Source of the DNA: Pleomorphomonas carboxyditropha
GTDB lineage: Bacteria; Pseudomonadota; Alphaproteobacteria; Rhizobiales; Pleomorphomonadaceae
Assembly (NCBI RefSeq): GCF_002770725.1
Contig: NZ_NQVN01000001.1
Location: 372,001-436,000, forward strand
Direction: 5' to 3'
Length of the DNA stretch: 64,000 bases
Numbering within the stretch: position 1 is the first letter of the stretch; each line of letters opens with the position of its first letter. The position numbers and the translations under genes were made by a program. Below are positions 8,647-31,990 of the stretch, piece after piece. The notes beneath the pieces were generated by a model. It saw nothing but the letters and a program-made list of their open reading frames with translations. It was not told the DNA's origin and did not search any database.

Positions 8647-8760
8647 GCGAATTCTTCCTTCAGTCGTTCCGAGGAAGAGAACACGCTGCCGGTCGCGATG
8701 CTGTCAGTATGCCTTGCCGCCAAATCTGCTAGGCTGCGCTTGCTCCACACGGAATCGAAC

Positions 8761-9462
8761 ATGGGCGACTTTCAGGACGGCAAGGTCAACCCGCCGCATT
8801 ACACCGGCCACCGCGAACGGCTGCGCGAGCGCTTCCGCACCGGCGGTGACGAGGCGATCGCCGACTACGAGCTCCTGGAGCTGATCCTGTTCCGGTCGAT
8901 CCCGCGCCAGGACGTCAAGCCGCTCGCCAAGGAGCTGCTGGCCGCCTTCGGCTCTTTCGCCGAGGTAATCGGCGCCTCGAAAGCGCGCCTCAGGACGATG
9001 AAGGGCATCGGCGAGGCGACCATTCTCGACTTCAAGGTGGTGCATGCCGCGTCGCGCCGCATCGCCCGGTCGGGCGTGGTGAAGCGGCCGGTCCTGTCGT
9101 CCTGGCCGGCGGTGATCGACTATTGCCGCACCGCCATGGCCTACGAGGACCGCGAGCAGTTCCGCGTGCTGTTCCTCGACAAGAAGAACCGGATGATCGC
9201 CGACGAGGTGCAGCAGACGGGCACGGTCGACCACACGCCGGTCTACCCGCGCGAGGTGGTGAAGCGGGCGCTGGAGCTCGCTGCCACGGCATTGGTTCTC
9301 GTCCACAACCATCCCTCCGGCGATCCAGCACCGTCACGGGCCGACGTCACCATGACCAAGCAGGTGATCGACGCCGCCACGCCGCTCGGCATCACCGTGC
9401 ACGATCACATCATCATCGGCCGCGACGGCCATGCCAGCCTGAGGGGGCTGCAACTGATCTGA
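8761..9462 (+). CDS. radC: RadC family JAB/MPN-domain protein
   Basis: A 233-aa protein with the N-terminal helix-hairpin-helix-like UPF0758 region ([13 protein letters not shown]) and the C-terminal MPN domain. The JAMM zinc motif is complete: H182-x-H184-P-S-G-D-P-x-P-S-x-x-D195. RadC was once thought to be a DNA repair protein; that role has been questioned, and the family is best called a predicted metalloprotein. I chose the ATG at 8761 (MGDFQDGK) over an in-frame ATG 63 bases upstream because homologues begin near the [13 protein letters not shown] segment. Confidence 0.92.
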
Positions 9463-9633
9463 GGAAGCCGGTTCCGGCCTGTCGGGGCGCCGGCCGCCGG
9501 CACGATGCCCGCACTGCAAATGCTGCCCGGCCGCTGATATTCTGCCGAAGCAGTGCTAGAAGCTGTCGGTCCGCCTGCGGCCTCGACAGGGTCGGCAACG
9601 CGTCCCATAGTGGTCGTTCGGTAGGTCAAATCC

Positions 9634-12600
9634 ATGACGGATCTCGCCATTCTGAAATATTGGCGATCGGCGGTCGCCGACAGTGCGATCGGAGACGCCT
9701 GCCTGACGGGCAGGATGGTCGAGGAATTTCGCAGCCTGTCGCGCGAGGAAGCCGAGACTGGTGTTCTTGGCCGAGAGGCCGTCGATTGGCTGTTTGCCGG
9801 GGTACCGGAGCATGTGCGGCGCATCGCCGTCAGCTACCGCCCCCTCCATGTGCGCCGGCAGAGTCGGCATGCCAGATCGCGCGCTGACGGCCTCCCGCTG
9901 GAGGTCACTCCGATCGTGACCGAAGCGCAGGTCACGCGCGAAGGCCGGATCATTCCCAATCAGAGCGTCATTGCGCGGGATATTCTCGATCCGCTGGCGC
10001 ATGGCGCCTTCTCGGTCGGACGCGTCGCCGACCTCGACAGCTTTCTGACGGCCCGGCCCTTTCCGCTCAAGGAGGAAGATCCGGATCTTTGGCAGAACTA
10101 TCGGGACCACTGGCAACGGATGATGGCCGAAGTCGGCGGTAACTGGCCGGCTTCGGACCCGGAATACCAGATCGTGGGGCATGGGCTGATTCGACCCGCG
10201 ACCGAGGCGGCCGATACGGTGAGGCATATCCTGTCCTTGCTCGACACGTTGATCCACGAGCAGCCGGAGAGCCCGCTTCTGGCGAATTTCGCACGCAAGA
10301 CCCCCTGCGATATCGAAGCCGTGCGCCAGGCCCCCTTCCCACTGGCGGAACGTCTCGGCCATTCCAGCGACGAGTTTCCCATCGCGGACCATCAGCGCGA
10401 AGTGCTTGCACATCTGGCGGTGGCGCGGGACGGCGACATCCTTGCCGTGAACGGCCCTCCGGGTACCGGAAAGACGACGATGCTCCTGTCGGCAATCGCC
10501 GGGGAATGGGTGCGCTCCGCGCTGGAGCAGGACAATCCGCCCGTGATCGTCGCGGCCTCCACCAACAATCAGGCGGTCACGAACATCATCGACGCCTTCG
10601 GCAAGGACTTCGGCCGAGGTGAAGGTCCGTTTGCAGGGCGCTGGCTGCCGGATATCAAGAGCTTTGGACTGTTCCTCGCGGCAGCCAGCAGGGAAGCGGA
10701 AGCCTCGGCAAAATATCAGACCGAGCGCTTTTTCCATAAACTTGAAACGCCGGAATATGTGAGCCGCGCCGGCGCGGCCTATCTCGAGGCGGCTCGGAAC
10801 GCCTTGCCGCACCTGAAGCAGGTGAATGTGACGGCTGTCGTCGCTGCCCTGCGGCAGCGCCTGCGAGAGGAAAGCGCTTTGCTCGTTCGGGCCGATGAGG
10901 CTTACGCGAAGTACCGCGGAGCAGAAAACGCTGTCCGCCGGCTCCTCGGGGATGATCCGGAAGCCGCCTTTGCAAGACGCCGCGATGCGATGAAGCGCGG
11001 CACAGCCGAAAAGGCCGAAGCCGACGCGCTCCTGCACAAATGGGAAGGTTGGCTGGCGGCCGAACCGATGCTGCTTTCGCTGTTCGGCTTTCTGCCGCCG
11101 GTTGCGAAAAAGCGGGCTCTGCGAGCACGGCTGTTCCTGCGCGAAGCGGGTGCGCCCGATGACCTTGCCGCGGCCGGCCGGGTCGATGCCATCGACAACC
11201 GGCTGAAGACCTGTTCGAGCGATATTGCGGCGCGAGCCAATGAGGCTGCGAAAGCTTGCGATCAGGCGGAACGCGCCTTGGCAGAACAAAGGCTGCTGGA
11301 AAGGGCATGGCGCGCGCTGGCGGCGGCTCTTCTCCCAAACTCGGACGGCGCCGATCTCCGGGAGTTCGATCGCGCGGCCGATCGTTCCGTGCGTTTCCGC
11401 CTTTTCCTGCTCGCGACCCATTACTGGGAAGGGCGCTGGCTGCTGGAAATGGAGAAGGCATTGCCGGCGCTCCAGCGGGTGCAGCAAAGCGGGCGCGGCG
11501 GCAACGACCGCAGCATGGTCGAACCGATGTGGTGTCGTCGGATGATGCTGACGCCGTGCGCCGTTTCCACCTTCGCGACTTTGCCGCGAAAAATGACCTG
11601 TCGTGACAATGCGTCGGGCAGCTATCGCACGGAATATCTATTCAATCATATCGACCTGCTGATCGTCGACGAGGCCGGGCAGGTGCTGCCGGAGGTCGCG
11701 GGTCCCTCGTTTGCTCTGGCGAAACGAGCGCTGGTGATCGGTGACACCCAGCAGATCGAGCCAATTTCCACGCTGACCGCCGCCGTCGATACCGGAAATC
11801 TGATCGAGGCGGGACTTCTGCCGCCCGGCGGCGGCCGGCAGGCGCTGCAGGCTCTCGATAAGGTCGGCCTTACGTCGCGCGGTGGAAGCACCATTCGGCT
11901 CGCGCAGTCGGCCTGCCGCTTCTATCCCTATCCGGAGCTGGAGCGGGGCCTCTATCTCTTCGAGCACCGGCGCTGCTACGACGAAATCATCAGCTTCTGC
12001 AACGACCTTTGCTACAAGGGAACCCTGCAGCCGATGCGCGGCCCGGCGAAGGACTGCACGCTGCGGCCGATGGGATATCTCCATATCGACGGCATGGCGA
12101 TATCGGCGGGCGGCAGCCGGTTCAATCCGCTGGAGGCGCAAACCATTGCCGCCTGGCTTGCCGCCAATGCCGGCCAGTTGAAAGCACGATATGGCAAGCG
12201 GCTGGAAGACATTGTCGGAATCGTCACGCCTTTTGGCCGCCAGGTTCGCGAAATCCGCAATGCCTGCGCGGCTCTCGGCATTGACGTCGGACGGCAAGGC
12301 ATGACTGTCGGCACCGTGCACGCGCTGCAGGGCGCCGAACGCCCGGTGGTCATTTTCTCGCCCGTCTACTCCAAACATGCCGACGGCGGTTTCATCGACC
12401 TCTCGCCCAGCATGCTCAACGTGGCGGTCTCGCGCGCGAAAGATGCCTTTCTCGTCTTTGGAGACATGGATACGCTGGCTTCCGCCCCTCCGGGCAGCCC
12501 GCGATCCGTCCTTGCGAGCTTCCTTTCCAAGGATAGCGCCAACGAGATGGCCTTCGAAGTGCCATCTCGAACCGATCTTTCCAGAGGGACGCGCACGCTC

Positions 12601-13068
12601 GAATCCTTGCGCGATGCGGCGGAGCATGACGCCTTTCTTTTGAAGGAATTTGCGAACGCCCGGCGCAGGCTTTGCATTGTCTCCCCGTGGATCAACATTG
12701 CGACGATGAAGGAGGTCGGATTCATCGGCGCCATCGCCACAGCCCGCGCCCGGGGCGTCGAGGTGGATATCTACGCCGATCCCCGCCTGACCCGTGATCG
12801 CAACAAGGCCGGACAGGACATGTTCGCCGAAGCCGATGAGGCATTGACCGGGATCGGCGCAACGCTCCACGCCGTCCAGCAACTTCACAGCAAGCTGGTA
12901 TGGGCGGACGACTCCTTGCTTGCGGTCGGCTCGTTCAACTGGTTCAGCGCCCACCGGACCGGCGAATTTGCCCGTCACGAGACCTCGGTCGTCTATCGCG
13001 GCAAGCATTTGGGGCCGGAAATCCAAACGCTTGAAGACAGCCTGAAGGCCCGCACTCCAACCTATTGA
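9634..13068 (+). CDS. SF1 (Upf1-like) helicase fused to a phospholipase-D nuclease domain; Mokosh type II-like defence candidate
   Basis: A 1144-aa protein with no close housekeeping counterpart. An N-terminal region of about 260 residues is of unknown type. Then come helicase motifs: Walker A GPPGTGKTT (274-282), Walker B DEAGQ (679-683), the SF1 motif V-like TVGTVHALQGAE (892-902) and motif VI-like NVAVSRAKD (929-937). A roughly 400-residue, partly coiled insertion separates Walker A and B, as in COG1112 helicases. The C-terminus carries one HKD-type motif, H1085-S-K1087, followed by GSFN (1099-1102), as in PLD-family nucleases that act as dimers. Type II Mokosh phage-defence proteins combine the same two activities in one chain. 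The gene stands alone, and its base use looks less GC-extreme than that of its neighbours, which may indicate transfer. A general RNA/DNA repair role remains possible. Confidence 0.85.
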   Translation: MTDLAILKYWRSAVADSAIGDACLTGRMVEEFRSLSREEAETGVLGREAVDWLFAGVPEHVRRIAVSYRPLHVRRQSRHARSRADGLPLEVTPIVTEAQVTREGRIIPNQSVIARDILDPLAHGAFSVGRVADLDSFLTARPFPLKEEDPDLWQNYRDHWQRMMAEVGGNWPASDPEYQIVGHGLIRPATEAADTVRHILSLLDTLIHEQPESPLLANFARKTPCDIEAVRQAPFPLAERLGHSSDEFPIADHQREVLAHLAVARDGDILAVNGPPGTGKTTMLLSAIAGEWVRSALEQDNPPVIVAASTNNQAVTNIIDAFGKDFGRGEGPFAGRWLPDIKSFGLFLAAASREAEASAKYQTERFFHKLETPEYVSRAGAAYLEAARNALPHLKQVNVTAVVAALRQRLREESALLVRADEAYAKYRGAENAVRRLLGDDPEAAFARRRDAMKRGTAEKAEADALLHKWEGWLAAEPMLLSLFGFLPPVAKKRALRARLFLREAGAPDDLAAAGRVDAIDNRLKTCSSDIAARANEAAKACDQAERALAEQRLLERAWRALAAALLPNSDGADLREFDRAADRSVRFRLFLLATHYWEGRWLLEMEKALPALQRVQQSGRGGNDRSMVEPMWCRRMMLTPCAVSTFATLPRKMTCRDNASGSYRTEYLFNHIDLLIVDEAGQVLPEVAGPSFALAKRALVIGDTQQIEPISTLTAAVDTGNLIEAGLLPPGGGRQALQALDKVGLTSRGGSTIRLAQSACRFYPYPELERGLYLFEHRRCYDEIISFCNDLCYKGTLQPMRGPAKDCTLRPMGYLHIDGMAISAGGSRFNPLEAQTIAAWLAANAGQLKARYGKRLEDIVGIVTPFGRQVREIRNACAALGIDVGRQGMTVGTVHALQGAERPVVIFSPVYSKHADGGFIDLSPSMLNVAVSRAKDAFLVFGDMDTLASAPPGSPRSVLASFLSKDSANEMAFEVPSRTDLSRGTRTLESLRDAAEHDAFLLKEFANARRRLCIVSPWINIATMKEVGFIGAIATARARGVEVDIYADPRLTRDRNKAGQDMFAEADEALTGIGATLHAVQQLHSKLVWADDSLLAVGSFNWFSAHRTGEFARHETSVVYRGKHLGPEIQTLEDSLKARTPTY

Positions 13069-13177
13069 AATGGAGGCCGGCGAACCGGACGGCCGACAGG
13101 GGCGATCAGCGGAAGGAAATCGAGAGGCGATGCCGGGCGTTGCGTCATCTCCCCGATCGCGATGGCCTTCGCCGCGC

Positions 13178-13981
13178 TTACAATTGCGCACCCAGTTCCG
13201 CCGATATCCGCCTGGCCGTTTCCTTGAGCGGGCCGAGCAGGCTGGCGAGCCCGATCTTTTCTAAACGCGCCGTCGACAGCGAGATCGACGCCGCATAGGG
13301 CACGCGGCCTTGGATGTCGAACACCGGCGCCGCCACGCAGGAGACGCCGAGCTCGTTCTCCTCGCGATCGAGCGCATAGTTGTCGGCGCGGATGGCGGCG
13401 AGCTCGTGGAGCATGTCGGCGTGGTCGACGATGGTGTTGGCCGTCAGCTTGACGATGCCGCTCCGGTGGCTCTGCCAGTAGGCCTCGAAATTGGCCGGCT
13501 TGTCGTGGGCGAGGAAGATCTTGCCCATGGCCGAGCAGAACAGCGGCAGGTGCTGGCCGATATAGGTGCGGGTGCGGATCATCCCCACCGTCGGCTCCAG
13601 CTTGTAGATCATGATGGCGTGGTCGTCCTCGCGCGTCGAGAAGTTGATCGTCTCGCCGACGTCGAGGTTGAGCGCCTCGAGATGCGGCGCCGCCACGTGG
13701 ATGATGTTGAGCGACGACAGCGTCTTCTGGCCGATGGCCACGAACTTGGTGGTCAGCCGGTAGCTGCCGGGCGACGGCGCCCGCGTCACGTAGCCGGCGC
13801 TTTCGAGGCCCTGCAGCAGGCGGTGCGTCGTGCTCTTGTTGAGCCCGGCCAGCTCCGACAGCTTGGCGAGCGGGCAGCCGTTGGGGAAGTTGCTGAGGAT
13901 CTCGACGAGCTGAAGGCCACGCAGCAGGCTCTGGCTGCCGGCCGGCGGCTCCTGGCCCGGCGCATTCTCCATCTCGGACAT
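13178..13981 (-). CDS. yiaJ: IclR-family repressor of the 2,3-diketo-L-gulonate operon
   Basis: A 267-aa regulator with an N-terminal winged helix-turn-helix (about residues 15-75; LAKLSELAGLNKSTTHRLL) and a C-terminal IclR effector domain. Many segments match E. coli YiaJ, which represses the yiaK-S operon: AGSQSL, EILSN.PNGCPLA, ALSSLNIIH.AAPHLEALN, GETINFS.REDDHAI and DREENELGVSC. It is divergent from the yiaL-yiaK operon, as in E. coli, and a palindromic operator candidate lies between them. Repression relieved by a sugar-acid intermediate is therefore the likely mode. Confidence 0.92.
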   Translation of the reverse strand: MSEMENAPGQEPPAGSQSLLRGLQLVEILSNFPNGCPLAKLSELAGLNKSTTHRLLQGLESAGYVTRAPSPGSYRLTTKFVAIGQKTLSSLNIIHVAAPHLEALNLDVGETINFSTREDDHAIMIYKLEPTVGMIRTRTYIGQHLPLFCSAMGKIFLAHDKPANFEAYWQSHRSGIVKLTANTIVDHADMLHELAAIRADNYALDREENELGVSCVAAPVFDIQGRVPYAASISLSTARLEKIGLASLLGPLKETARRISAELGAQL

Positions 13982-14080
13982 TCACCCGTCTCCCGCGTCG
14001 CCTCTGGCGTTCCGCCGATGGATTAGTCCCGGCGAAGGGCGCCGTCAAATGGGTGCCGGCGCCTTCAGGAAACTACGGCA

Positions 14081-14108
14081 TTGACAAAGCCGGAGTCCAG
14101 CATATACC
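14081..14108 (+). promoter_or_regulatory. Sigma70-type promoter of the yia-like operon
   Basis: TTGACA at 14081-14086 and TATACC at 14103-14108 are 16 bases apart. Transcription would start near 14115, about 50 bases before the first gene. Confidence 0.6.
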
Positions 14109-14129
14109 AAAATGCAGAACGACATTTTG
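14108..14129. promoter_or_regulatory. Candidate YiaJ operator
   Basis: CAAAATG (14108-14114) and CATTTTG (14123-14129) form a perfect inverted repeat with eight bases between. It overlaps the -10 box and predicted start site, which suits a repressor. A third half site, AAATG, follows at 14137-14141. Confidence 0.55.
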
Positions 14130-14163
14130 AAATACGAAATGTTGAGGGCGACGGGAGGACGGC

Positions 14164-14649
14164 GTGCTCAAGGGTTCGATGGACGACGCGGCCTGGCGGG
14201 CCGGGCTGCCGGCCGCCTTGCGGCATATGCTGGAGCGGCTCGCCGATCCGGCGCTGCGGCAGGCGCCGGCCGGCCGCCGCGACCTCGACGGCGACGCCTT
14301 CCTGATGGTCAACGACTACGCGACGCAGCCGGCCGAGGCGCTGCGCGCCGAGAGCCACCGCCGCTATTGCGACGTGCAGGTGATGCTGGAGGGGGCCGAG
14401 CAGGTGGGTTGGGCGGCGCTCGCCGGCGATCCCGATGCCGCCTACGACGCGGCGGGCGACGTCGCCTACCACGTACCCGGTCCGGTGCTCGCCTGGCACG
14501 CCTTCACCGCCGGCGACGTCTTCGTCTTCGCCCCCGACGATATCCATCTGCCCGGCGTGGCGCTTCACCGGCCGGCCCGTGTCCGCAAGCTGGTCGGCAA
14601 GCTGCCCTGGACCACGCTCGCCGGCGACTGGCCGCCGGCCGCCGGCTGA
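14164..14649 (+). CDS. yiaL: YhcH/YjgK/YiaL family protein
   Basis: A 161-aa cupin-like protein of the DUF386 family. Family segments visible are LDGDAFLMVNDY, SHRRYCDVQVMLEG and FAPDDIHLPGVAL, the last of which includes a conserved histidine. E. coli YiaL lies next to yiaK in the same operon, and other members include EbgC, the beta subunit of the evolved galactosidase. The biochemical role of YiaL is not settled; sugar-acid mutarotase or isomerase activity has been proposed for the family. The start is GTG at 14164, with GGGAGGA five bases upstream. It is the first gene of the operon. Confidence 0.87.
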   Translation: MLKGSMDDAAWRAGLPAALRHMLERLADPALRQAPAGRRDLDGDAFLMVNDYATQPAEALRAESHRRYCDVQVMLEGAEQVGWAALAGDPDAAYDAAGDVAYHVPGPVLAWHAFTAGDVFVFAPDDIHLPGVALHRPARVRKLVGKLPWTTLAGDWPPAAG

Positions 14650-14685
14650 GCCCTGAACGAAAACGGATTGCCCGGAAGGAAAGCC

Positions 14686-15687
14686 ATGCTGCATCTCACC
14701 CATCAGGACCTGAAGGCCGAGTTCCGGCGCGTCCTCCTTGCCTCCGGTCTTGCGCCCGACAAGGCCGACGCCTGCGCCGGGCTGTTCGCCGACACCACCG
14801 AGACCGGCGTCTATTCGCACGGCGTCAACCGCTTCCCGCGCTTCGTCCAGCAGATCCGCGCCGGCCACGTCCGCGTCGACGCCGAGCCGAAGAAACTCCT
14901 GTCGCTCGGTGCCATCGAGCAGTGGGACGCCTGCCGCGCCATCGGCAACCTGACGGCCACCGCCATGATGGAACGGGCGATCGCGCTGGCCGCCGAGCAC
15001 GGTATCGGCCTCGTTGCACTCCGCAACGCCAACCACTGGATGCGCGGCGGCTCCTACGGCTATCAGGCGGCCGAGAAGGGCTATATCGGCATCTGCTGGA
15101 CCAATTCCATCGCCGTCATGCCGCCCTGGGGCGCTAAGGAGTGCCGCATCGGCACCAACCCGCTGATTGTCGCCGTGCCCGGCGAGCCGGTGACCATGGT
15201 CGACATGTCGATGTCGATGTTTTCCTACGGCATGCTGGAGGTGAACCGGCTGGCCGGCCGTCAATTGCCGGTCGACGGCGGCTTCGACGACGACGGCCGG
15301 CTGACCCGCGACCCGGCCATCGTCGAGAAGAACCGCCGCATCCTGCCGATGGGCTACTGGAAGGGCTCGGGCCTCTCCATCGTGCTCGACATGATCGCCA
15401 CGCTGCTCTCCGGCGGCCTGTCGGTGGCCGAGGTGACGGAGGAGATGGACGACGAATACAACGTGTCGCAGGTGTTCGTCGCCGTCGAGGTCGACCGGCT
15501 GATCGACCGCGGCACGCGCGACGAGAAGCTGAGGCGCATCTGCGACTATGTGCTGACCGCCGAGCGCTCCGACCCCGCCGAGGCCATCCGCCTGCCGGGC
15601 CACGAGTTTCCGCATCTGAAGGCCCGGAATGTCGCGAACGGCATTCCGGTGGACGAGCGCGTCTGGGAGACCATCCGCGCCCTCTGA
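14686..15687 (+). CDS. yiaK: 2,3-diketo-L-gulonate reductase (3-dehydro-L-gulonate 2-dehydrogenase)
   Basis: A 333-aa NAD(P)H-dependent oxidoreductase of the LDH2/MDH2 family that reduces 2,3-diketo-L-gulonate to 3-keto-L-gulonate. Near-identity to E. coli YiaK (DlgD) is obvious in long blocks: [58 protein letters not shown] and GYWKGSG. The catalytic His of the family falls in the SHGVNR block. The ATG at 14686 follows a GGAAGGAA ribosome site; a TTG 18 bases upstream is less likely. This gene fixes the substrate of the whole operon. Confidence 0.95.
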
Positions 15688-15712
15688 CGGCGGCGGGGAG
15701 GGGGAGATTTCG

Positions 15713-17257
15713 ATGAAGTCCAGCTCAATTGCGCCAGAGGCCGATGCGCCGATCCTGTCGATGGCGGGCATCGTCAAGACCTTCGGCCGCGTCGCCGCCG
15801 TCGACCGGGTGAGCATCGACGTCAAGCCCGGCAAGATCCTGGCCCTCCTCGGCGAGAACGGCGCCGGCAAGTCGACGCTGATCAAGATCCTGGCCGGCGT
15901 CTACAAGCGCGACGGCGGCACCATCCGCTATCATGGCCAGGAAATCGCCTCGGCCGCCGCCGTCGGCCGGCGCGGCAGCCAGCCGATCGCCTTCATCCAC
16001 CAGGACCTCGGCCTGATCGACTGGATGACGGTGGCCGAGAACATGGCCTTCACCATGGGCTTCCCCCGCCGCTTCGGCCTGATCGACGCGGCCGGCGTGC
16101 GCCGGCGCGCCGAGGCGGCGCTCAACTTCGTCGGCACCGACATCGACCCCGACGCCCGCGTCTTCGAGCTGTCGCGCACCGAGAAGTCGCTCTTGGCCAT
16201 CGCCCGCGCCGTCGCCGTCGACGCCGAGGTGCTGGTGCTCGACGAGCCGACCGCCTCGCTGCCGGCCGACGACGTCAAGCATCTGTTCGAGGTGCTGAAC
16301 CGCCTGCGCGACAAGCGCGTCGGCATGATCTACGTCACCCACCGCCTCGACGAGGTGGTGGAGATCGCCGACGAGGTCTGCGTCATGCGCGACGGCCGGC
16401 AGGTGGCCGGCGGCGCCACCGCGCAATACCAGTTGCGCGACCTCGTGCGGCTGATCGTCGGCGAGGAGAAGCGCGGCGACAAGTGGCGGCCGCTGCCGGT
16501 CGGCGCTCCCATCCTGCTGAAGGTCGACGGCCTGACGGTCGGCGACACCGGGCCGGTGTCCTTCACGCTGCAGCGCGGCGAGATGGTGGCCCTGGTCGGC
16601 CTGCGCGGCGCCGGCCAGGAGGAGATCGGCCGCTGCCTGTTCGGCAAGCGGACGGCCGCGGCCGGCTCGATCGAGCTCGACGGCCGGCCGATCCGGCCGG
16701 CCAGCCCCACCGAGGCGATCGCCGCGGGCATCTCGCTGGTGGCCGGCGACCGGCTCGGCGAGAGCCTCGTCATGACCATGTCGGTGCGCGAGAACCTGTT
16801 CCTCAACCCCTGCAACCTCGGCCTCAGGCCGGTCGCCCCCTACGGCACTCACGCCGAAGCGAAAAGCGCCTGGGAGGAGGTGGAGCGCTTCGACGTGCGG
16901 CCCCGCCTGATCGACATCGATGTCAGCGCGCTGTCCGGCGGCAACCAGCAGAAGGTGGTGATCGCCCGCTGGATGAAGCTCGGCACGCCGGTGCTGATCC
17001 TCGAGGACCCGACGGCCGGCGTCGACGTCGGCGCCCGCGCCGAGATCTACGACCTGCTCAACGCGGCGCTGGAAAAGGGCATCGCCGTGCTGGTCGTCTC
17101 GATGGACTTCGAGGAGATCGCCCACATCTGCAACCGCGCCCTGGTGTTCAACCGCGGCAAGGTGGTGGGCGAGCTCACCGGCGGCGACGTCACCTTCGGC
17201 AACCTGTTGCATCTGGCCGCCGGCGGCGGCGAGGAGAGGGCGGCCGGCGCCGCCTGA
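15713..17257 (+). CDS. Sugar ABC transporter ATPase, two nucleotide-binding domains (CUT2 type)
   Basis: A 514-aa tandem ATPase of the RbsA/XylG type that would energise import of the operon substrate. Domain 1 has Walker A GENGAGKST (47-55), Walker B ending D177-E178, and a divergent signature LSRTEKS. Domain 2 has the degenerate GLRGAGQ loop normal for this family, the signature LSGGNQQ, and a Walker B that reads L430-E431-D432, that is Glu-Asp where Asp-Glu is usual. Start at ATG 15713, just after a GGGGAGGGGGAG ribosome site. E. coli uses a TRAP transporter (YiaMNO) at this step, so this locus has swapped transporter type. Confidence 0.92.
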   Translation: MKSSSIAPEADAPILSMAGIVKTFGRVAAVDRVSIDVKPGKILALLGENGAGKSTLIKILAGVYKRDGGTIRYHGQEIASAAAVGRRGSQPIAFIHQDLGLIDWMTVAENMAFTMGFPRRFGLIDAAGVRRRAEAALNFVGTDIDPDARVFELSRTEKSLLAIARAVAVDAEVLVLDEPTASLPADDVKHLFEVLNRLRDKRVGMIYVTHRLDEVVEIADEVCVMRDGRQVAGGATAQYQLRDLVRLIVGEEKRGDKWRPLPVGAPILLKVDGLTVGDTGPVSFTLQRGEMVALVGLRGAGQEEIGRCLFGKRTAAAGSIELDGRPIRPASPTEAIAAGISLVAGDRLGESLVMTMSVRENLFLNPCNLGLRPVAPYGTHAEAKSAWEEVERFDVRPRLIDIDVSALSGGNQQKVVIARWMKLGTPVLILEDPTAGVDVGARAEIYDLLNAALEKGIAVLVVSMDFEEIAHICNRALVFNRGKVVGELTGGDVTFGNLLHLAAGGGEERAAGAA

Positions 17258-17320
17258 GACATTTGCGGCCGGCGGCGACGGGCGCCGCGGCCGGGCAATC
17301 CGACACACCGGGAGAACAAG

Positions 17321-18373
17321 GTGGCCAGTTCATCTGTCAAATCGACCGCGCTGGAGGAGCGCGTCAGCCTGAAGCGCGACGGCCTCGCGCCGGTCCTCAC
17401 CCAGGCGGCCACCCGCTACGGCCTGCCGATCCTCTGCGTCCTGTTGATCGTGCTGTTCTCGCTCACGACGCCGTCCTTCGCCTCGATGCTGACCTTGCAG
17501 GCCATCGTCGCCAGCAAGGCCAAGATGGCGCTCCTGGCGCTCGCCGCCACCATCCCGATGATCGTCGGCAAGATCGACCTCAACGTCGGCTTCGGCATCG
17601 TGCTCTGGCACATTCTGGCCATCAGCCTGCAGGTGACCTACGGCCTGTCCTGGCCGATGGCCGTGCTGATCGTGCTGCTCCTCGCCGCCCTCTACGGCCT
17701 GTTCAACGGCATCCTGGTGGCGGTGGCCGACATCGACAGCTTCGTCGCCACCCTCGGCAGCGGCACCACGCTCTATGCCGTCGCCCTCTGGCATTCCGGC
17801 GGCCGCCAGATCGTCGGCGACCTGCCCGACGCCTTCCTGATGCTGCACCACACCGAGATCGCCGGCATTCCGGTCGGCGGCTTCTACGTGCTGGCGCTGG
17901 CCGTCGTGCTGTGGCTCGTCACCGAGCGCACGCCGCTCGGCCGCTGCATGTACGCCGTCGGCGGCAATCCCAACGCCGCCGGCCTCAACGGCATCCCGGT
18001 GACGCGCACCATCATCGGCTCCTTCATCGCCTCCTCGGTGATCACCGGCTTCACCGGCGTGCTGGTGGCGGCCGAGCAGGGCGTCGGCCAGGCCAGCGTC
18101 GGCATGGACTACATGCTGCCGGCGCTGGTCGGCGCCTATCTCGGCTCGACCACCATCCGGCCCGGCCGCGTCAACGTCTGGGGCACGGTGGTCGGCGTCG
18201 CCATCCTGGCGATCGGCATCGCCGGCATCCAGCAGTTCGGCGGCGCCTTCTGGGTCGAGCCGCTGTTCAACGGCACCACGCTGCTGTTGTCGATCACGCT
18301 GGCCGGCTACGCCCAGCGGCGGCGCCTCATGAACCAGAAGGCCGTGCAACGCGGCTCGACGAAGAAGGCGTGA
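17321..18373 (+). CDS. Sugar ABC transporter permease (CUT2 type)
   Basis: A 350-aa inner-membrane protein of the BPD_transp_2 (RbsC/XylH) family with about eight to ten hydrophobic helices. The typical segment GGNPNAAGLNGIPV, which contacts the ATPase, is present near residue 210. The GTG start at 17321 follows GGGAGAACAAG. The gene sits between the ATPase and the binding protein of the same transporter, with gaps of 63 and 43 bases. Confidence 0.93.
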   Translation: MASSSVKSTALEERVSLKRDGLAPVLTQAATRYGLPILCVLLIVLFSLTTPSFASMLTLQAIVASKAKMALLALAATIPMIVGKIDLNVGFGIVLWHILAISLQVTYGLSWPMAVLIVLLLAALYGLFNGILVAVADIDSFVATLGSGTTLYAVALWHSGGRQIVGDLPDAFLMLHHTEIAGIPVGGFYVLALAVVLWLVTERTPLGRCMYAVGGNPNAAGLNGIPVTRTIIGSFIASSVITGFTGVLVAAEQGVGQASVGMDYMLPALVGAYLGSTTIRPGRVNVWGTVVGVAILAIGIAGIQQFGGAFWVEPLFNGTTLLLSITLAGYAQRRRLMNQKAVQRGSTKKA

Positions 18374-18416
18374 GCCGTCCGTTCACGCTCACCAAAGGGA
18401 AAAGGGAGAAAACGCC

Positions 18417-19523
18417 ATGACACGACTTGGATTCTTCATCTCGACGGCCGCCTGCGCGCTCGCCGCCGCCACGCTGCCGGTGCGCGCCGACGCCTTCCTC
18501 GACGAGGCCAAGGCGCTGGTCGCCAAGGCGACGGCGCCGGTGTCGGCCTGGGACGGCCCGACGTCCGGCCCGGCCATCGCCAAGGACAAGACCATCGTCT
18601 ACATCGCCTCCGACATGAAGAACGGCGGCGTGCTCGGCGTCGAGGAGGGCGTCGAGGAAGCCGTCAAAGCGGCCGGCTGGAAGATGGATACGCTCGACGG
18701 CGCCGGCTCGGTCAAGGACCAGCTCGCCGCCCTCAACCAGGCGATCGCCCAGAAGCCGGCCGGCATCGTCATCGGCGGCTGGAACCCCAACGTCGCCAAG
18801 ATCGCCCTGAAGAAGGCGGTGGCGGAAGGCATCGTGCTGGTCGGCTGGCACGCCGTGCCCAAGCCCGGTCCGATCCCCGAATACGGCGTGTTCTACAACG
18901 TGACGTCCGACAGCGACGACGTCGCCAGGACAGCGGCCATGTATGCCGTCGCCAAGTCGGAAGGCACGGCCAAGGCGATCATCTTCACCGATTCGCTCTA
19001 CCAGATCGCCCTCGACAAGGCGAACGCCATGAAGGCGGTGATCGAGAAGTGCGCCGGCTGCAAGGTGGTCGAGTTTATCGACACGCCGCTCGCCGACACC
19101 TCCAACCGCATGCCGCAGATGACCTTCTCGCTGATCCAGAAATACGGCGACGACTACCAGTATTCGCTGGCCATCAACGACCTCTATTTCGATTTCATGG
19201 CCTCGTCGCTGCAGACGGCCGGCAAGGCGGGCGACGGCGCGCCGTTCAACGTCTCGGCCGGCGACGGCTCGGTGACCTCCTACCAGCGCATCCGTACCGG
19301 CAACCACCAGACGGCGACGGTGCCCGAGCCGCTGAAGCTGCACGGCTGGCAGATCGTCGACGAGTTCAACCGCGCCTTCGCCGGGGCCGAGCCGTCGGGC
19401 TACGTGACGCCGGTGCATCTGGTCACCAAGGACAACATCGCCTTCGACGGTGGCGACAAGAATGTCTTCGACCCGCAGAACGACTACCAGGGCCACTACA
19501 AGGCGATCTGGGGCGTCGAGTAA
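18417..19523 (+). CDS. Periplasmic sugar-binding protein (CUT2 type)
   Basis: A 368-aa exported protein with a signal peptide ending near ADA (residue 25) and a type I periplasmic-binding fold (Peripla_BP_4). Substrate is inferred from the operon as L-ascorbate, dehydroascorbate or 2,3-diketo-L-gulonate; a direct match to a characterised protein cannot be made by eye. A strong purine-rich leader (AAAGGGAAAAGGGAG) precedes the ATG, which fits the high expression needed for binding proteins. Confidence 0.9.
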   Translation: MTRLGFFISTAACALAAATLPVRADAFLDEAKALVAKATAPVSAWDGPTSGPAIAKDKTIVYIASDMKNGGVLGVEEGVEEAVKAAGWKMDTLDGAGSVKDQLAALNQAIAQKPAGIVIGGWNPNVAKIALKKAVAEGIVLVGWHAVPKPGPIPEYGVFYNVTSDSDDVARTAAMYAVAKSEGTAKAIIFTDSLYQIALDKANAMKAVIEKCAGCKVVEFIDTPLADTSNRMPQMTFSLIQKYGDDYQYSLAINDLYFDFMASSLQTAGKAGDGAPFNVSAGDGSVTSYQRIRTGNHQTATVPEPLKLHGWQIVDEFNRAFAGAEPSGYVTPVHLVTKDNIAFDGGDKNVFDPQNDYQGHYKAIWGVE

Positions 19524-19600
19524 GCCGCGCGTCGCCAGCCACCATCGTCCGGCGCGAAGACTTCTCCGCGCCGGAAGCCCTTCGCTCGGGAAGATCACCC

Positions 19601-20530
19601 ATGTCGGCCTTTCTCTCCTCCACCGACGGCGTCGCGGCCGGCTTCCTGCGGCCCGACAGCGTCCTCAGGCGCCTCGCTTCGCCCGCCGCCTGGGCCGAGG
19701 GGCCGGTCTGGCTGCCGGCCGAGGACGCGGTGGTCTTCTCGGACGTTAAGGGCAACCGCATGTTCCGCTGGTCGCGTGACGGTGTGGTGAGCGTGTTCCG
19801 CGATCCGTCCAATTTCGCCAACGGCAATGCCCTCGACCGCGACGGCCGCCTCGTCACCTGCGAGCACGGCCGCCGCGGCGTCTCCCGCACCGAGCCGGAC
19901 GGCCGCGTGCACATGCTGGTCGACCGCTTCGACGGCCGCCGCCTCAATTCGCCCAACGATGTCGCCGTCAAGTCGGACGGCAGCATCTGGTTCACCGATC
20001 CGCCCTACGGCATCACCGGCGACGCCGAGGGCTTCAGGTCGGAAAGCCAGGTGATCGGCTGCTGGGTCTACCGCTTCGATCCCGAAACCGGCGAGGTCGA
20101 CGCCGTCGCCACCGACGTGCAGCGGCCGAACGGCCTTGCCTTCTCGCCCGACGAGCGCCGGCTCTACGTCGCCGACATGTCGGTGGTCGACTTTCCGACC
20201 AAGGGCCGCCGCCATCTCGCCGCCTACGACGTGGTCGACGGCCGGCGCCTCGCCAATCCGCGCGTCGTCGCCGTCGTCGAGCTCGGCATTCCCGACGGCT
20301 TCACGGTCGACGCCGCCGGCAACCTCTATTGCAGCTTCGAGGCGGGCGTGATGGTCATCGCCCCCGACGGCCGCCGCCTCGGCGTCATTGCCGTGCCCGA
20401 GCGCGTTTCAAACTGCACCTTCGGCGGCCCCGATCAGGACGAGCTGTTCATCACCGCCACCACCTCGCTCTACCACATCCGCCTGGCGGCGCGCGGCGTG
20501 CAATACGGCCATCTCCTGGAAGGACGCTGA
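19601..20530 (+). CDS. SMP-30/gluconolactonase family lactonase
   Basis: A 309-aa six-bladed beta-propeller of the SGL family. Segments WAEGPVWLP (metal Glu), LNSPNDVAVKSDGSIWFTDPPYGI (metal Asn), RPNGLAFSPDERRLYVAD (metal Asn and Asp region) and GIPDGFTVDAAGNLY (metal Asp) give the usual divalent-cation site. In this operon it probably opens a sugar-acid lactone such as an ascorbate-derived or gulono-lactone before YiaK or the kinase. I chose ATG 19601 because the fold begins soon after. Confidence 0.88.
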   Translation: MSAFLSSTDGVAAGFLRPDSVLRRLASPAAWAEGPVWLPAEDAVVFSDVKGNRMFRWSRDGVVSVFRDPSNFANGNALDRDGRLVTCEHGRRGVSRTEPDGRVHMLVDRFDGRRLNSPNDVAVKSDGSIWFTDPPYGITGDAEGFRSESQVIGCWVYRFDPETGEVDAVATDVQRPNGLAFSPDERRLYVADMSVVDFPTKGRRHLAAYDVVDGRRLANPRVVAVVELGIPDGFTVDAAGNLYCSFEAGVMVIAPDGRRLGVIAVPERVSNCTFGGPDQDELFITATTSLYHIRLAARGVQYGHLLEGR

Positions 20531-20532
20531 AG

Positions 20533-22050
20533 ATGCCGGTCTGGCTGGGCATCGACTGCGGCGGCACCTTCCTGAAAGCCGGCCTCTACGATGAGGCGGG
20601 CCGGATCGTCGGTCTTGCCCGCCGCGGCCTGCCGGTGCTCTCCGAGCGACCGGGCTGGGCCGAGCGCGACATGGACGCGCTGTGGCAGGCCACCTGCCGG
20701 GTGATTGCCGACGTGCTGGCGACAAGCGGCATCGCACCAACCGAGGTCGCCGGCCTCGGCATCTCCGCCCAGGGCAAAGGCCTGTTCCTGCTCGACCGCG
20801 AACGGCGACCGCTCGGTCGGGCCATGCTGTCGTCGGACCAGCGGGCGCTCGACCGGGTGCGCGCCTGGCAGCGCGACGGCCTGCCGGAAAAGCTCTATCC
20901 GCGCACGCTGCAGACGCTCTGGACCGGTCATCCGGTGTCGCTGTTGCGCTGGCTGAAGGACGAGCAGCTGGAGATCTACGGCCGCATCGGCTCGGTGATG
21001 ATGGCGCACGACTACCTGCGCTTCCGCCTGACCGGCGCGCGTGGCGCCGAAATCACCAACATCTCCGAAAGCAACCTCTACGACATGCGGACCGGCCGCT
21101 ATGACGGCGCGCTGGCCGATCTCTGCGGCATCGGCGAGGCGATGGCGGCGCTGCCGCCCGTCGTCGGCTCGGCCGAGGTGGTCGGCGGCGTCACGCGGCA
21201 GGCGGCGGCCGACACCGGCCTTGCCGCGGGCACGCCGGTGGTCGGCGGCCTGTTCGACGTCGTCGCCACCAGCCTCGCCGCCGGGGTCGAGGACGAGAGC
21301 CGCATCAACGCCGTGCTCGGCACCTGGTCGGTGGCGACCGGCGTCGCCGCCGAAGTGGCGCCGAGCCTCGATATTCCCTTCGTCTACGGCCGGCACGCCG
21401 AGCCGGGCCTCTACATCGTCCACGACGCCAGCCCCACCTCGGCCGCCAACCTCGAATGGCTGGCCGCCCAGTTCGCCGACCGCGACTATGCCGGCATGGA
21501 CCGGGCGGTGGCGGCGCTGCCGCCGGCCGCCAGCGACGTGCTGTTCCTGCCCTTCCTCTACGGCTCCAACGCCGGCCTGGGCATGAAGGCCTGCTTCTAT
21601 GGCCTGCAGGCGCTGCACGGCCGCGCCCACCTGTTGCAGGCGGTCTACGAGGGCGTGGTGTTCAGCTTCCTGCAGCATCTCGACCGGCTGCGCCGCCGCT
21701 TTCCCGCCGCCGAGGCGCTGCGCGTCACCGGCGGCCCGGCCCGCTCGGCGGTGTGGATGCAGATGCTGGCCGACGCCACCGGCCTGCCGCTGGAGCTGCC
21801 GGCCGTCGAGGAGACCGGCTGCCTCGGCGCCGCCATGGCGGCGGCGGTCGGCACCGGCGCCTTTGCCGACTTTCGGACGGCGATGGCAGCCTTCGCGCCG
21901 GCGCTGACGCGCGTCGAGCCGGTGCCCGCCCGCTTTGCCGCCTATGCCCGCAAGCGTGCCGCCTACCGCGAGCTGATCGCAGCCCTTGCCGGATACGAAG
22001 AGCGTCTCGCGGCGCTCCGCGCCAACCCATCCCCAGGAATCGCCACATGA
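20533..22050 (+). CDS. lyxK: FGGY-family L-xylulose/3-keto-L-gulonate kinase
   Basis: A 505-aa kinase that matches E. coli LyxK (YiaP) in long blocks: LGIDCGGTFLKAGLYD (phosphate loop), GWAERDMDALW, GISAQGKGLFLLD, LWTGHPVSLLRWLK, GTPVVGGLFDVV, FLPFLYGSNAGL and VEETGCLGAA. In the yia-sgb pathway this kinase is thought to phosphorylate 3-keto-L-gulonate (and L-xylulose), giving the substrate of the next enzyme. It starts two bases after the lactonase stop and its own stop overlaps the following gene by ATGA. Confidence 0.92.
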   Translation: MPVWLGIDCGGTFLKAGLYDEAGRIVGLARRGLPVLSERPGWAERDMDALWQATCRVIADVLATSGIAPTEVAGLGISAQGKGLFLLDRERRPLGRAMLSSDQRALDRVRAWQRDGLPEKLYPRTLQTLWTGHPVSLLRWLKDEQLEIYGRIGSVMMAHDYLRFRLTGARGAEITNISESNLYDMRTGRYDGALADLCGIGEAMAALPPVVGSAEVVGGVTRQAAADTGLAAGTPVVGGLFDVVATSLAAGVEDESRINAVLGTWSVATGVAAEVAPSLDIPFVYGRHAEPGLYIVHDASPTSAANLEWLAAQFADRDYAGMDRAVAALPPAASDVLFLPFLYGSNAGLGMKACFYGLQALHGRAHLLQAVYEGVVFSFLQHLDRLRRRFPAAEALRVTGGPARSAVWMQMLADATGLPLELPAVEETGCLGAAMAAAVGTGAFADFRTAMAAFAPALTRVEPVPARFAAYARKRAAYRELIAALAGYEERLAALRANPSPGIAT

Positions 22051-22700
22051 CCCGTCCCGCCCTGCAAGTCGCCCTCGATTTCACCGCGCTCGAGCCGGCG
22101 CTCGCCGCCGCCCGCCGGCTCGCCGGCCACGTCGACATCCTGGAAGCCGGCACGCTGCTCTGCCTTGCCTGCGGCATGGATGCGGTGCGGGCGCTGCGCC
22201 GCGATCATCCCGACCACCTGCTGGTCGCCGACTTCAAGGCGGCCGATGCCGGCGAGACGCTGGCCGAGCTGGCCTTCGACGCCGGCGCCAACTGGATGAC
22301 CGTCGTCTGCGCCGCGCCGCTCGCCACCATGGAGCGGGCGCTCGCCGTGGCCGAAGCGCGTGGCGGCGACGTGCAGATCGAGCTGTTCGGCCATTGGACG
22401 CTCGACGACGCCCGCGCCTGGCGCCGGCTCGGCATCCGCCAGGCGGTCTTCCACCGCGGCCGCGACGCCCAGGCGGCCGGCCAGACCTGGAGCCGCGACG
22501 ACCTCGACCGGCTGAAGGCGCTCTCCGACATCGGCCTCGAAATGTCGGTGACCGGCGGGATAGCCGCCGGGGACCTGCCGCTCTTCCGCGACATCGCCGC
22601 CAAGGTGTTCATCGCCGGGCGCGCTCTTTATGGCGCGACCGATCCGGCAGCGGCGGCCATTGGCTTTCAGCAGGCCATCGCCGACATCTGGGGAGCCTGA
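22047..22700 (+). CDS. ulaD: 3-keto-L-gulonate-6-phosphate decarboxylase
   Basis: A 217-aa TIM-barrel of the orotidine-5'-phosphate decarboxylase superfamily that converts 3-keto-L-gulonate 6-phosphate to L-xylulose 5-phosphate and CO2. The active-site DFKAADAGE (D-x-K-x-x-D) is intact, and HRGRDAQAAG and SVTGGI are the phosphate-binding and catalytic segments known from UlaD/SgbH. The ATG overlaps the kinase stop, so translation is coupled. Confidence 0.93.
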   Translation: MTRPALQVALDFTALEPALAAARRLAGHVDILEAGTLLCLACGMDAVRALRRDHPDHLLVADFKAADAGETLAELAFDAGANWMTVVCAAPLATMERALAVAEARGGDVQIELFGHWTLDDARAWRRLGIRQAVFHRGRDAQAAGQTWSRDDLDRLKALSDIGLEMSVTGGIAAGDLPLFRDIAAKVFIAGRALYGATDPAAAAIGFQQAIADIWGA

Positions 22701-22704
22701 GGCC

Positions 22705-23565
22705 ATGCGCCGCCATCCCCTCGGCATCTACGAGAAGGCGCTGCCGCCGGGCCTCTCCTGGCCGGAGCGGCTGGCGCTCGCCAAGGCCTGCGGCTTCGAC
22801 TTTGTCGAAATGTCCGTCGACGAGAGCGACGCCCGGCTCGCCCGGCTGGAGTGGAGCAACGAAGAACGGCTGGCGCTGGTGCGCGCCACCGTCGAGACCG
22901 GCATCGCCGTGCCGTCGATGTGCCTGTCCGGCCACCGCCGCTTTCCCTTCGGCAGTCATGATCCGGCCGTCGTCGAACGCGCGCGCGACATCATGGAGAA
23001 AGCGATCCGCCTGGCCTGCGACTGCGGCATCCGCACGGTCCAGCTTGCCGGCTACGACGTTTATTACGAGGACCAGGACGAAGGCACGCTCGCCCGCTTC
23101 GAGGCCGGCCTGCAATGGGCAGTGGAGAGAGCCGCGGCGGCGCAGGTCATGCTCGCCGTCGAGATCATGGATACGCCCTTCATCAACTCGATCCGGAAAT
23201 GGAAGGACTGGGAGGCGCGCATCCGCTCGCCCTGGTTCACGGTCTACCCGGATGTCGGCAATCTCAGCGCCTGGCGCAATGACGTGTCAGCCGAGCTCGA
23301 GCTCGGGCTCGACCGGATTGCGGCCATCCACCTGAAGGATACGCGCCAGGTGACGGCCGATCATCCCGGCGCCTTCCGCGACGTCGCTTTCGGCGAGGGC
23401 TGCGTCGACTTCAGCGGCATCTTCGCCCGGCTGAAGGCGCTAGGTTATCGCGGCGCCTTTCTGGTGGAGATGTGGACCGAAAAGGCGGAGGAGCCGGTGG
23501 CCGAACTGATCGCCGCCCGCCGCTTCATCGAGGCGCGCATGAGGGAAGCGAGATTCGAGGCTTGA
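22705..23565 (+). CDS. ulaE: L-xylulose-5-phosphate 3-epimerase
   Basis: A 286-aa TIM-barrel of the AP-endonuclease-2 (xylose isomerase-like) family. It resembles UlaE/SgbU in the blocks LGIYEKALP, FVEMSVDESDARLARLEW, CLSGHRRFPFGS, VQLAGYDVYYE, VEIMDTPF and DVGNLSAW. It makes L-ribulose 5-phosphate from L-xylulose 5-phosphate. The last step, the 4-epimerase SgbE/UlaF to D-xylulose 5-phosphate, is not encoded in this window and must be elsewhere. This is the last gene of the operon. Confidence 0.92.
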   Translation: MRRHPLGIYEKALPPGLSWPERLALAKACGFDFVEMSVDESDARLARLEWSNEERLALVRATVETGIAVPSMCLSGHRRFPFGSHDPAVVERARDIMEKAIRLACDCGIRTVQLAGYDVYYEDQDEGTLARFEAGLQWAVERAAAAQVMLAVEIMDTPFINSIRKWKDWEARIRSPWFTVYPDVGNLSAWRNDVSAELELGLDRIAAIHLKDTRQVTADHPGAFRDVAFGEGCVDFSGIFARLKALGYRGAFLVEMWTEKAEEPVAELIAARRFIEARMREARFEA

Positions 23566-23682
23566 GGAAACTGGCGGGGCCGACGATTGACAGCTTGCAT
23601 TCGGCGACGAGCGCGACGACGCTGGGCCTGCCATCGGCAGGCGACTCCTCGCCGGCGCCGACCGTGAACTCGCCTTCCTGAA

Positions 23683-24183
23683 ATGACCGAGGCCGAATTA
23701 CTCCTGCTGGTCCACCAGCTCATGCCCGCCGACGGGACAATCGACAAAGGCACTCTCGGAGAGGCCGCTGCGGCGCCTGGCGCCTACGCGCTCATCCTTC
23801 ATCTGGCGGTTCCGGTCCGGTTCTCGCGCACCGGCATGGCCAGCGCCTCGTTGTCGGGCTGGTATGTTTATGCGGGAAGCGCACGCGGCAGCGGCGGTAT
23901 TCGGGCGAGGCTCCAACGCCACTTTCGACCGGGAAAGACGGTTCACTGGCATGTCGACGAGCTGACGAATGCCGCCGATCGACTGCTCGCCCTGGCGTAC
24001 CCTCAGGGGGCGGAATGCGACATTGTCGATCGATTGCTACGGTCGAGCCTATTCCAGCCGGCTCTGCGGCGCTTCGGCAGCAGCGACTGCAAGCGCTGTC
24101 CGGCTCATCTGCTAAAGCCCGTCCCGGACATGCTCGGAACGCGTTACGGCAGCGCTGCTGAGCCGCCAGAGCTTTTTCGATGA
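23683..24183 (+). CDS. DUF123 / GIY-YIG-like nuclease family protein
   Basis: A 166-aa protein of the COG1833 family, a circular variant of the GIY-YIG fold. GAYALILHL and WYVYAGSARGSGGIRARLQRHF supply the GxYxL and (Y)VYAGSA(R/L)G...R motifs, followed by HWHVDEL and the C-terminal C-D...SDCKRCPAHLL region usual in the family. Some members are fused to endonuclease III or stand alone; nuclease activity is predicted only. It is 117 bases after the ascorbate operon and probably unrelated to it. Confidence 0.85.
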   Translation: MTEAELLLLVHQLMPADGTIDKGTLGEAAAAPGAYALILHLAVPVRFSRTGMASASLSGWYVYAGSARGSGGIRARLQRHFRPGKTVHWHVDELTNAADRLLALAYPQGAECDIVDRLLRSSLFQPALRRFGSSDCKRCPAHLLKPVPDMLGTRYGSAAEPPELFR

Positions 24184-24207
24184 AATCAGGCCCACCGAAA
24201 AAGCTCT
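24168..24207 (+). terminator. Hairpin around the end of the DUF123 gene
   Basis: Perfect 12-bp arms AGAGCTTTTTCG (24168-24179) and CGAAAAAGCTCT (24196-24207) enclose the stop codon. It can terminate in either direction because of its A and T tracts. Confidence 0.6.
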
Positions 24208-24215
24208 ATCTCCTT

Positions 24216-24287
24216 GTTAAGACGCATTTTCTTTACGCGAACCGGGGTCCGCTTCGCTCGGAAATGCTTTAGAGGAGCATTTCCGAG
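24216..24287. repeat. Hyphomicrobiales-type intergenic palindromic repeat
   Basis: The stretch beginning CGCATTTTCTTTACGCGAAC and ending near GGAAATGCTTT looks like a short dispersed repeat I recall from many rhizobial intergenic regions, with GCATTTTC/GGAAATGC arms. It runs into a second perfect hairpin with 12-bp arms (24257-24268 and 24276-24287). Copy number cannot be checked here. Confidence 0.5.
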
Positions 24288-24690
24288 GCGTTCCAGCCCA
24301 CCGGCAACGGCGACGGCCGCTCGATCCTGACATTGCGTGCCTCGAAGCCCTCGACGCCCCGTCCGAACAGCGCCGGCAGGCCGCCCGGGTAGTCGTCGAT
24401 GCCGACGACCTTGCCGTCCGGACCGGGCGTCCAGGCATTGGCGCGGCCGGCAGCCGCGGAGGCGGGTGCGAGATCGGCTTTCGACGGCCGCATGTGACGT
24501 CGAGCACGAGGCGGACGAGAGGCGGGTCGATGAGGCGGGCGAGCGCCTGCACCACCTTGCGGGCCAACCGGCCGGCCGGCGTCAGTTCCAGCGTCGTATG
24601 GATGAATTCTTACGGCGCCAGCGCGTCGCCGGGCTTTTGAGGCTCGCGCCGAGAATGTCCCAGTCGCCGCCGGCCCCCGGCCGTCGGCTT
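24269..24690 (-). pseudogene. Decayed remnant of a coding gene downstream of uxaC
   Basis: Protein-like text is spread over three minus-strand frames: GGDWDILGASLKSPATR, then EFIHTTLELTPAGRLARKVV after a stop, then GGLPALFGRGVEGFEARNVR to a TAA at 24269. No single frame joins them, which fits a gene broken by frameshifts and a stop. The C-terminal piece has the look of a carbohydrate-active enzyme tail, but I do not recognise the family. Its place directly after uxaC suggests a lost member of that operon. The region 24184-24696 holds only this remnant, one hairpin and one repeat. Confidence 0.4.
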
Positions 24691-24696
24691 CGGCGG

Positions 24697-26103: not shown

Positions 26104-26185
26104 GTCGCCATCTTCTCCTGAGGAAACCCGCGCCGTCCGCAGGTCGGTTGATCGATCCATCCAGCCGCTTCCTGGGACTTGGATG

Positions 26186-27001
26186 TCACTCCTTGGTGGC
26201 GCCCGCCAGCAGGCCGCTCATGAAGAAGCGCTGCAGGCTGACGAACAGCAGGCCGGTCGGCACCACCGACAGTACCGACATGGAGAGAAGGCGCGGCCAG
26301 TTGATGTCCCATTGGCCGACGTTGCTGGCCAGCGCCAACTGCACGGTCCACTGGGAGCGGTCGTTGATGATCAGGAAGGACCACAGATAGTCGTTCCAGC
26401 GGTCGACGAAGGTGAAGGCCGTCAGCGTGGCGATGGCCGGGATCGACAGCGGCACGATGATCCGCCACAGGATGCGCCACTCGCTGGTGCCGTCCATGCG
26501 GGCCGCCTCGAGCAGGCTGTCGGGAATGCCGCGGATATACTGCCGCATGATGAAGACGCCGGTCGGTGTCGCCGCGGGTGCGAGGATGACGCCCCACAGC
26601 GAGTTGAGCAGGTGAAGATCTCTCAGCACCAGAAAGATCGGGATCAGGATGATCTGCAGCGGGATCATCAGCGCCGACATGATCAGCAGGAAGAAGAAGG
26701 TTTCGCCTGGAAAGCGGAATTTCGACAGCGCGTAGCCGGCCATCACCGCCGTCACCACCGACAGCGCCGCCGAGATGGTCGAAACGAAGGTCGAGTTCAT
26801 GAAGAAGCGGGCGAAATTGTCCTGCGACCATGCCCGCACGAAGTTCTCGAGCGTCGGCTGGTGCGGCCACAGCGACGGTGGCCAGGCGAAGATTTCCGTC
26901 GCCGGCTTGAGCGCCGAGAACAACAGCCAGAGCGGTGGCGTGATGAACAGAATCAGGACGAGCGCCACGCAGGGCAGGCGGACGTATCGTGCCATGACCA
27001 T
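26186..27001 (-). CDS. Carbohydrate ABC transporter permease (MalG type)
   Basis: A 271-aa inner-membrane permease of the CUT1 family with six predicted helices. The EAA loop that docks the ATPase is visible as EAARMDGTSEWRILWRIIVPLS. Its ATG shares one base with the stop of the upstream permease (TGATG), so the pair is translationally coupled. It works with the permease at 27001-27954, the binding protein at 27951-29195 and probably the ATPase at 33513-34631. Confidence 0.92.
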   Translation of the reverse strand: MVMARYVRLPCVALVLILFITPPLWLLFSALKPATEIFAWPPSLWPHQPTLENFVRAWSQDNFARFFMNSTFVSTISAALSVVTAVMAGYALSKFRFPGETFFFLLIMSALMIPLQIILIPIFLVLRDLHLLNSLWGVILAPAATPTGVFIMRQYIRGIPDSLLEAARMDGTSEWRILWRIIVPLSIPAIATLTAFTFVDRWNDYLWSFLIINDRSQWTVQLALASNVGQWDINWPRLLSMSVLSVVPTGLLFVSLQRFFMSGLLAGATKE

Positions 27002-29195: not shown

Positions 29196-29229
29196 GACAT
29201 CCCCTCTTCTGCTGCTGTAACACCGGCCG

Positions 29230-31967: not shown

Positions 31968-31990
31968 TTCGCCATTCCCGTTCTAATTTA

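Follow-up and report, generated by a model that had tools for sequence, protein, structure and literature searches.

Mokosh type II systems are defined by a COG1112/UPF1-like helicase and a phospholipase D (PLD) domain encoded in one gene, as set out in the accessible part of the source (PMC11672841), and their protein, MkoC (PADLOC profile PDLC03924), combines an N-terminal domain, a UPF1-like helicase and a C-terminal PLD domain in a chain that stands alone. In Mokosh type I, by the same partial text, two genes, mkoA and mkoB, are involved and a kinase domain is carried on the helicase. Here, we analyzed a stretch of 64,000 nucleotides from contig NZ_NQVN01000001.1 of Pleomorphomonas carboxyditropha (hereafter the window), in which a gene lying between radC and an IclR-type regulator had been proposed from the sequence to encode a helicase-nuclease resembling Mokosh type II (hereafter the original prediction). 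Our results indicate, with a probability of about 85%, that this gene, here called mkoC, encodes a complete single-gene Mokosh type II anti-phage protein and was gained horizontally, heading a segment inserted at the radC 3' end.

Domain architecture and assignment to Mokosh type II

The gene is a single open frame starting with ATG (Table 1). The PADLOC MkoC profile, for which no curated cut-off is printed, matched its product at 1237.6 bits over positions 6-1135 of 1136, and the next-best profiles were MkoA (108.9 and 82.3 bits, on the helicase part) and MkoB (58.8 bits, on the PLD part). The same profile matched all 12 full-length homologues of our alignment, the query included. In Pfam, AAA_11 (46.9 bits), AAA_12 (65.2 bits) and PLDc_2 (29.6 bits), all of them exceeding the curated cut-off of 27, follow one another in this order, helicase first and PLD last. 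Because the helicase and PLD are thus encoded in one gene, the protein falls under the published definition of Mokosh type II as far as the available text gives it (PMC11672841), and it is almost certainly MkoC, an ordinary intact member of an already known anti-phage family. Mokosh type I was rejected as a candidate, since no Pfam kinase was detected at E≤0.1 and the PLD lies in the same chain as the helicase, although both its helicase core and its PLD are related to those of the query.

The helicase motifs and the PLD motif were found at the very residues named in the original prediction. H1085, K1087, G1099, S1100 and N1102 are invariant across the 12 full-length members and D1092 is nearly so, and the residues of the HKD motif are invariant or nearly so in all 14 aligned PLD domains. 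Alignments thus show the catalytic residues of Walker A, Walker B and the HKD motif to be intact. A structure lacking the PLD fold would have spoken against the assignment; instead, sequence and model both support a PLD fold at the C terminus. In the model, the helices of the long insertion span residues 364-619 in blocks mostly with a predicted local distance difference test (pLDDT) score of 70-90, and residues 356-585 are the fastest-evolving part of the protein (ratio of nonsynonymous to synonymous substitution rates, dN/dS, 0.268). Sequence and model together show, in order along the chain, a conserved N-terminal domain, a UPF1-like superfamily 1 (SF1) helicase core that carries the long helical insertion, and a Nuc-like PLD domain with a single HKD motif.

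Table 1 Features of the mkoC locus in the window.
Feature	Coordinates	Strand	Basis or remark
Complete radC, bounding the inserted segment on the left	8698..9462	+	PF04002, 148 bits
Left boundary repeat, in the radC 3' end	9430..9459	+	
Inserted segment: mkoC and IclR / sugar-uptake and catabolism cluster	9463..34674		Absent in four sister species
mkoC-like gene, Mokosh type II helicase-PLD protein	9634..13068	+	1144 amino acids; PADLOC PDLC03924 MkoC match
N-terminal domain, residues 1-215	9634..10278	+	Without recognized solved relative
Walker A, G274-T282	10453..10479	+	Residues 274-282 invariant in 12/12 aligned members
Residues ~364-620, long helical insertion following the first RecA strands	10723..11493	+	Model helices 364-619
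Walker B / motif II, D679-Q683 (DEAGQ)	11668..11682	+	Alignment of 12 members
Helicase motif VI, N929-D937	12418..12444	+	AAA_12 match 777-945 and alignment
PLD nuclease domain, residues 979-1144	12568..13065	+	
Single HKD motif, H1085-x-K1087-x4-D1092 ... G1099-S-F-N1102	12886..12939	+	Alignment
Right boundary repeat, a second, partial radC 3' end	34645..34674	+	25/33 identical to own radC end

The PLD domain of the query shares its fold and HKD motif with Nuc, NucT and Zucchini, but these are small stand-alone nucleases, whereas the PLD of the query is fused behind a helicase. Likewise, UPF1, senataxin and SEN1 have the SF1 core and the motif VI region in common with the query, and the query differs from them in its N-terminal domain, its long helical insertion and its PLD fusion. 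CoCoNuT CnuH helicases are also described, in the accessible part of PMC11090510, as UPF1-like proteins in which a large helical insertion follows Walker A, as having fused nucleases in some cases, and as predicted to act on RNA. However, this likeness is one of description, and CnuH belongs to multi-gene McrBC-type systems, none of which was recognized beside mkoC. Compared with MkoC of Mokosh type II no architectural difference was found; what distinguishes the query is its position at the 3' end of radC and its absence from 13 sampled congeners.

The radC site and the inserted segment

In an alignment of ten sister loci with the window, nine are colinear with it as far as the end of radC (9463), only radC being aligned within that stretch in the tenth (G013), and a radC match is present in 14/14 genomes of the genus. 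In G002, G008, G013 and G007, the DNA found at 34754-34828 of the window follows about 55-150 bp after radC, while a common insert of ~3.7 kb comes first after radC in G003, G011 and G009, extra DNA in G001, and other DNA in G012 and G004; radC is thus followed by non-mkoC DNA in all ten. The window carries ~25 kb of extra DNA between radC and the gene at 34.8 kb. Since four sister species join radC nearly directly to the 34.8-kb DNA, a segment has, judging by this alignment, been inserted at the radC 3' end, with mkoC as its first gene. The comparison of the same locus in relatives that had been suggested thus found the segment missing between these two genes in four sister species. The gene had also been described as isolated, with no mobile genes beside it. 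Indeed, no mobile genes were found adjoining mkoC, but the gene occupies the leftmost position in a ~25-kb inserted segment and in this sense is not isolated. The ~3.7-kb insert itself was seen at L050, L051 and L055 (G003, G011 and G009, respectively), and by eye the open reading frames (ORFs) of L051 look like a metal/iron uptake cluster.

At its right end the segment repeats part of the radC 3' end, readable as HASLKGLQLI, and the identity of this copy to the radC end of the window (Table 1) exceeds the best of 30 shuffles (22/33). The radC-end pattern, which was chosen after both copies were seen, occurs twice in the window against 0.00 expected. The scan for such repeats covered 30 kb downstream in the window and, in the sister loci, reached the ends of 15-kb stretches. 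In G004 (L059:7618-12333), a second copy of the radC 3' end identical at 32/33 positions lies 4.7 kb after radC, and by its sequence it is the same place used again. The best matches in the remaining nine sister loci are 18-23/33, with shuffle maxima of 20-22. The match of 23/33 in G009, above its shuffle maximum of 22, weighs against reading these copies as boundary repeats, as small excesses can therefore arise without any boundary.

Pfam analysis of 10 segment ORFs revealed sugar uptake and catabolism genes. Because the IclR/sugar cluster is located elsewhere in G009, G011 and G012, the segment is a composite. The tyrosine integrase family (PF00589) has 13 matches in the genome, none of them within the segment (C11:381463-406675); no search for serine recombinases or transposases was made. 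The immediate neighbors of mkoC are radC and an IclR-type regulator (PF01614, 197.3 bits). The somewhat different base composition that had been noticed was also found: the GC content of mkoC is 63.5% against 66.9% for the window, only 7 of 243 equal-sized intervals being lower, and its GC content at third codon positions (GC3) is 0.741 compared with 0.788-0.967 in 13 hand-picked genes. In staphylococci and macrococci, radC is a known insertion target and, in the accessible parts of these reports, is interrupted by the insertions (PMC6008420, PMC11769447), whereas radC remains whole here.

Distribution of MkoC and alternative roles

The genome carries one copy of mkoC. A full-length MkoC match was found in 0/13 other species of the genus, G008 and G005 giving weak helicase-only matches, and hence mkoC is, on this distribution, an accessory gene. 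In a sample of the order in which 2 candidates per genome were scored, 16/397 genomes matched at E≤1e-50, and in the 15 other than the query the match lay within profile positions 243-970; these 15 (L007-L021, 1137-1290 amino acids) form, judged on the three that were scanned, a different UPF1-like family without PLD. At E≤1e-100, 8/398 genomes of a phylum sample matched, five (query included) over the whole profile. There were 669 matching plasmid records, 40 of them covering at least 80% of the query, many of Agrobacterium pAt type, and eight matching phage records, none with this coverage. IMG/VR gave 26 loci, with near full-length proteins in four (L067, L068, L069 and L071). In Escherichia coli, at least 80% of an enterobacterial homologue is present in 829/5426 genomes, and all 919 places are chromosomal. 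The closest relative, from Mesorhizobium hawassense, is 82% identical (dN/dS 0.151), and the relatives on Agrobacterium plasmids are 59% identical. A copy on an Ochrobactrum plasmid (L042:5934 onward) is 69% identical, and its frame stops at query residue 829 and looks broken.

No gene family is common to more than 3/16 loci within 8 kb, some of these loci having short flanks, and the family present in three comprises ABC-type ATPases; on these comparisons, MkoC stands as a single gene without an obligate partner. Among individual loci, MkoC of L068 adjoins gajB and gajA; in E. coli, dptFGH is found 3 kb away from one copy, and a different copy comes after an integrase located next to tRNA-Phe. 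On a viral contig (L067:1046-4784), VWA, PP2C and kinase-plus-zinc-ribbon genes stand directly before the MkoC gene, a set named TerY-P in the accessible part of PMC11090510. Other relatives vary at the C terminus. A 1699-amino-acid relative (L073:3969-10371; MkoC profile 115 to 941, 542.2 bits) has in place of PLD a Toprim domain (38.7 bits) and a partial topoisomerase IA domain (19.9 bits, below cut-off), and the gene next to it encodes a further topoisomerase IA part (39.9 bits). The open frames at L070:2254-5274 and G546:C3:9452-12421 end before the PLD (profile 5-967 and 3-963, respectively), and Pfam found no PLD in L070.

Some observations weigh against a complete defence protein of known type. 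NCBIfam gave no MkoC match, its best hit being PLuB_AAA at 61.9 bits against a cut-off of 999; the model of the full protein is of low confidence (mean pLDDT 65.5), with the RecA core its weakest part; no defence genes were recognized adjoining mkoC in the window; and the PLD part may be dispensable in some members, since L070 and G546 end before it. We nevertheless consider that the protein very probably defends against phage, as predicted from its sequence. An alternative is that it has no defence role and is instead a UPF1/COG1112-like helicase with a housekeeping function in RNA or DNA metabolism to which a PLD has been appended, which would accord with the homology of its core to UPF1, SEN1, IGHMBP2 and DNA2 and with the second, PLD-less family scattered over 15/396 other genomes of the same order. 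A housekeeping family kept at this locus in all relatives was not what we found: none of the 13 other genus species and, with two candidates scored per genome, none of the 396 other order genomes sampled has a full-length copy, all ten sister loci lack mkoC, its codon composition is foreign, it lies within an inserted segment, and relatives occur on plasmids and in prophages. This candidate was rejected on its absence from sister species, and we regard such a role as very unlikely.

The original prediction had also allowed for a divergent or new subtype, set by an N-terminal domain that does lack a recognized solved relative. However, the MkoC profile, matched from position 6, includes this region, which is also common to all 12 aligned members, so the protein is an ordinary type II protein; the full-length profile match leaves a new subtype with hardly any probability. 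It is also conceivable, if rather improbable, that mkoC is a cargo gene serving the mobile element itself, for example by excluding rival plasmids, with phage defence secondary. Its place at the head of an inserted segment, the integrase before one E. coli copy and the 40 plasmid records would suit such a role, but all E. coli places are chromosomal, and the Mokosh family was reportedly named for phage defence by Millman in 2022.

The N-terminal domain and the proposed mechanism

Identity in the N-terminal region is 16-82% among those aligned members for which it was measured, and the residues invariant over eight sequences include Y9, W10, P93, R102, G104 and R115. Residues 1-249 modelled alone gave a mean pLDDT of 76.3, a predicted template modelling score of 0.73 and 78 residues at or above a pLDDT of 90. 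Comparison of this model with solved structures and viral models yielded no convincing relative. Several weak structural matches, with few residues aligned, cover residues 1-7 to 209-217, and this span hints at a stalk in which helix 3-19 is packed against helix 191-209. Taken jointly, these features could mean that the N-terminal domain has a fold unseen in solved structures, set on a UPF1-like two-helix stalk where UPF1 carries domain 1B, and serves for recognition in an exchangeable sensor-helicase module; as this unit of N-terminal domain and helicase also exists in a PLD-less form (L070) and in a form fused instead to a Toprim/topoisomerase IA part (L073), Mokosh type II would then be one of several outputs of one sensor. 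We offer this reading tentatively and consider it doubtful.

For Mokosh type II itself, the data show domain content, intact catalytic residues, selection and mobility; beyond these, a mechanism of sensing, ATP-driven switching and paired-PLD cleavage can be proposed, with about even chances of being right. The helicase and N-terminal domain would sense phage nucleic acid, the helicase loading on phage-derived single-stranded nucleic acid, and ATP-driven movement would rearrange the chain. Dimers are the active form of single-HKD enzymes, Nuc and BfiI among them, and for this reason two PLD domains are proposed to pair, after which they would cleave phage nucleic acid or, with a broader reach, that of the host. 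The target could be RNA or DNA. In the accessible part of one report, whose authors cite others, Mokosh is said to degrade viral transcripts (PMC11291487).

P. carboxyditropha thus provides a clean data point for the family, an intact MkoC where the other sampled congeners are without one and with flanks showing its gain. No description of what Mokosh type II senses was found in the literature searched, and the N-terminal domain, being conserved across the family, offers the best prospect of finding it; together with its reuse beside another effector in L073, this domain is what most merits following. Moreover, other effectors could, as the Toprim-fused relative suggests, be driven by the sensor-helicase part.
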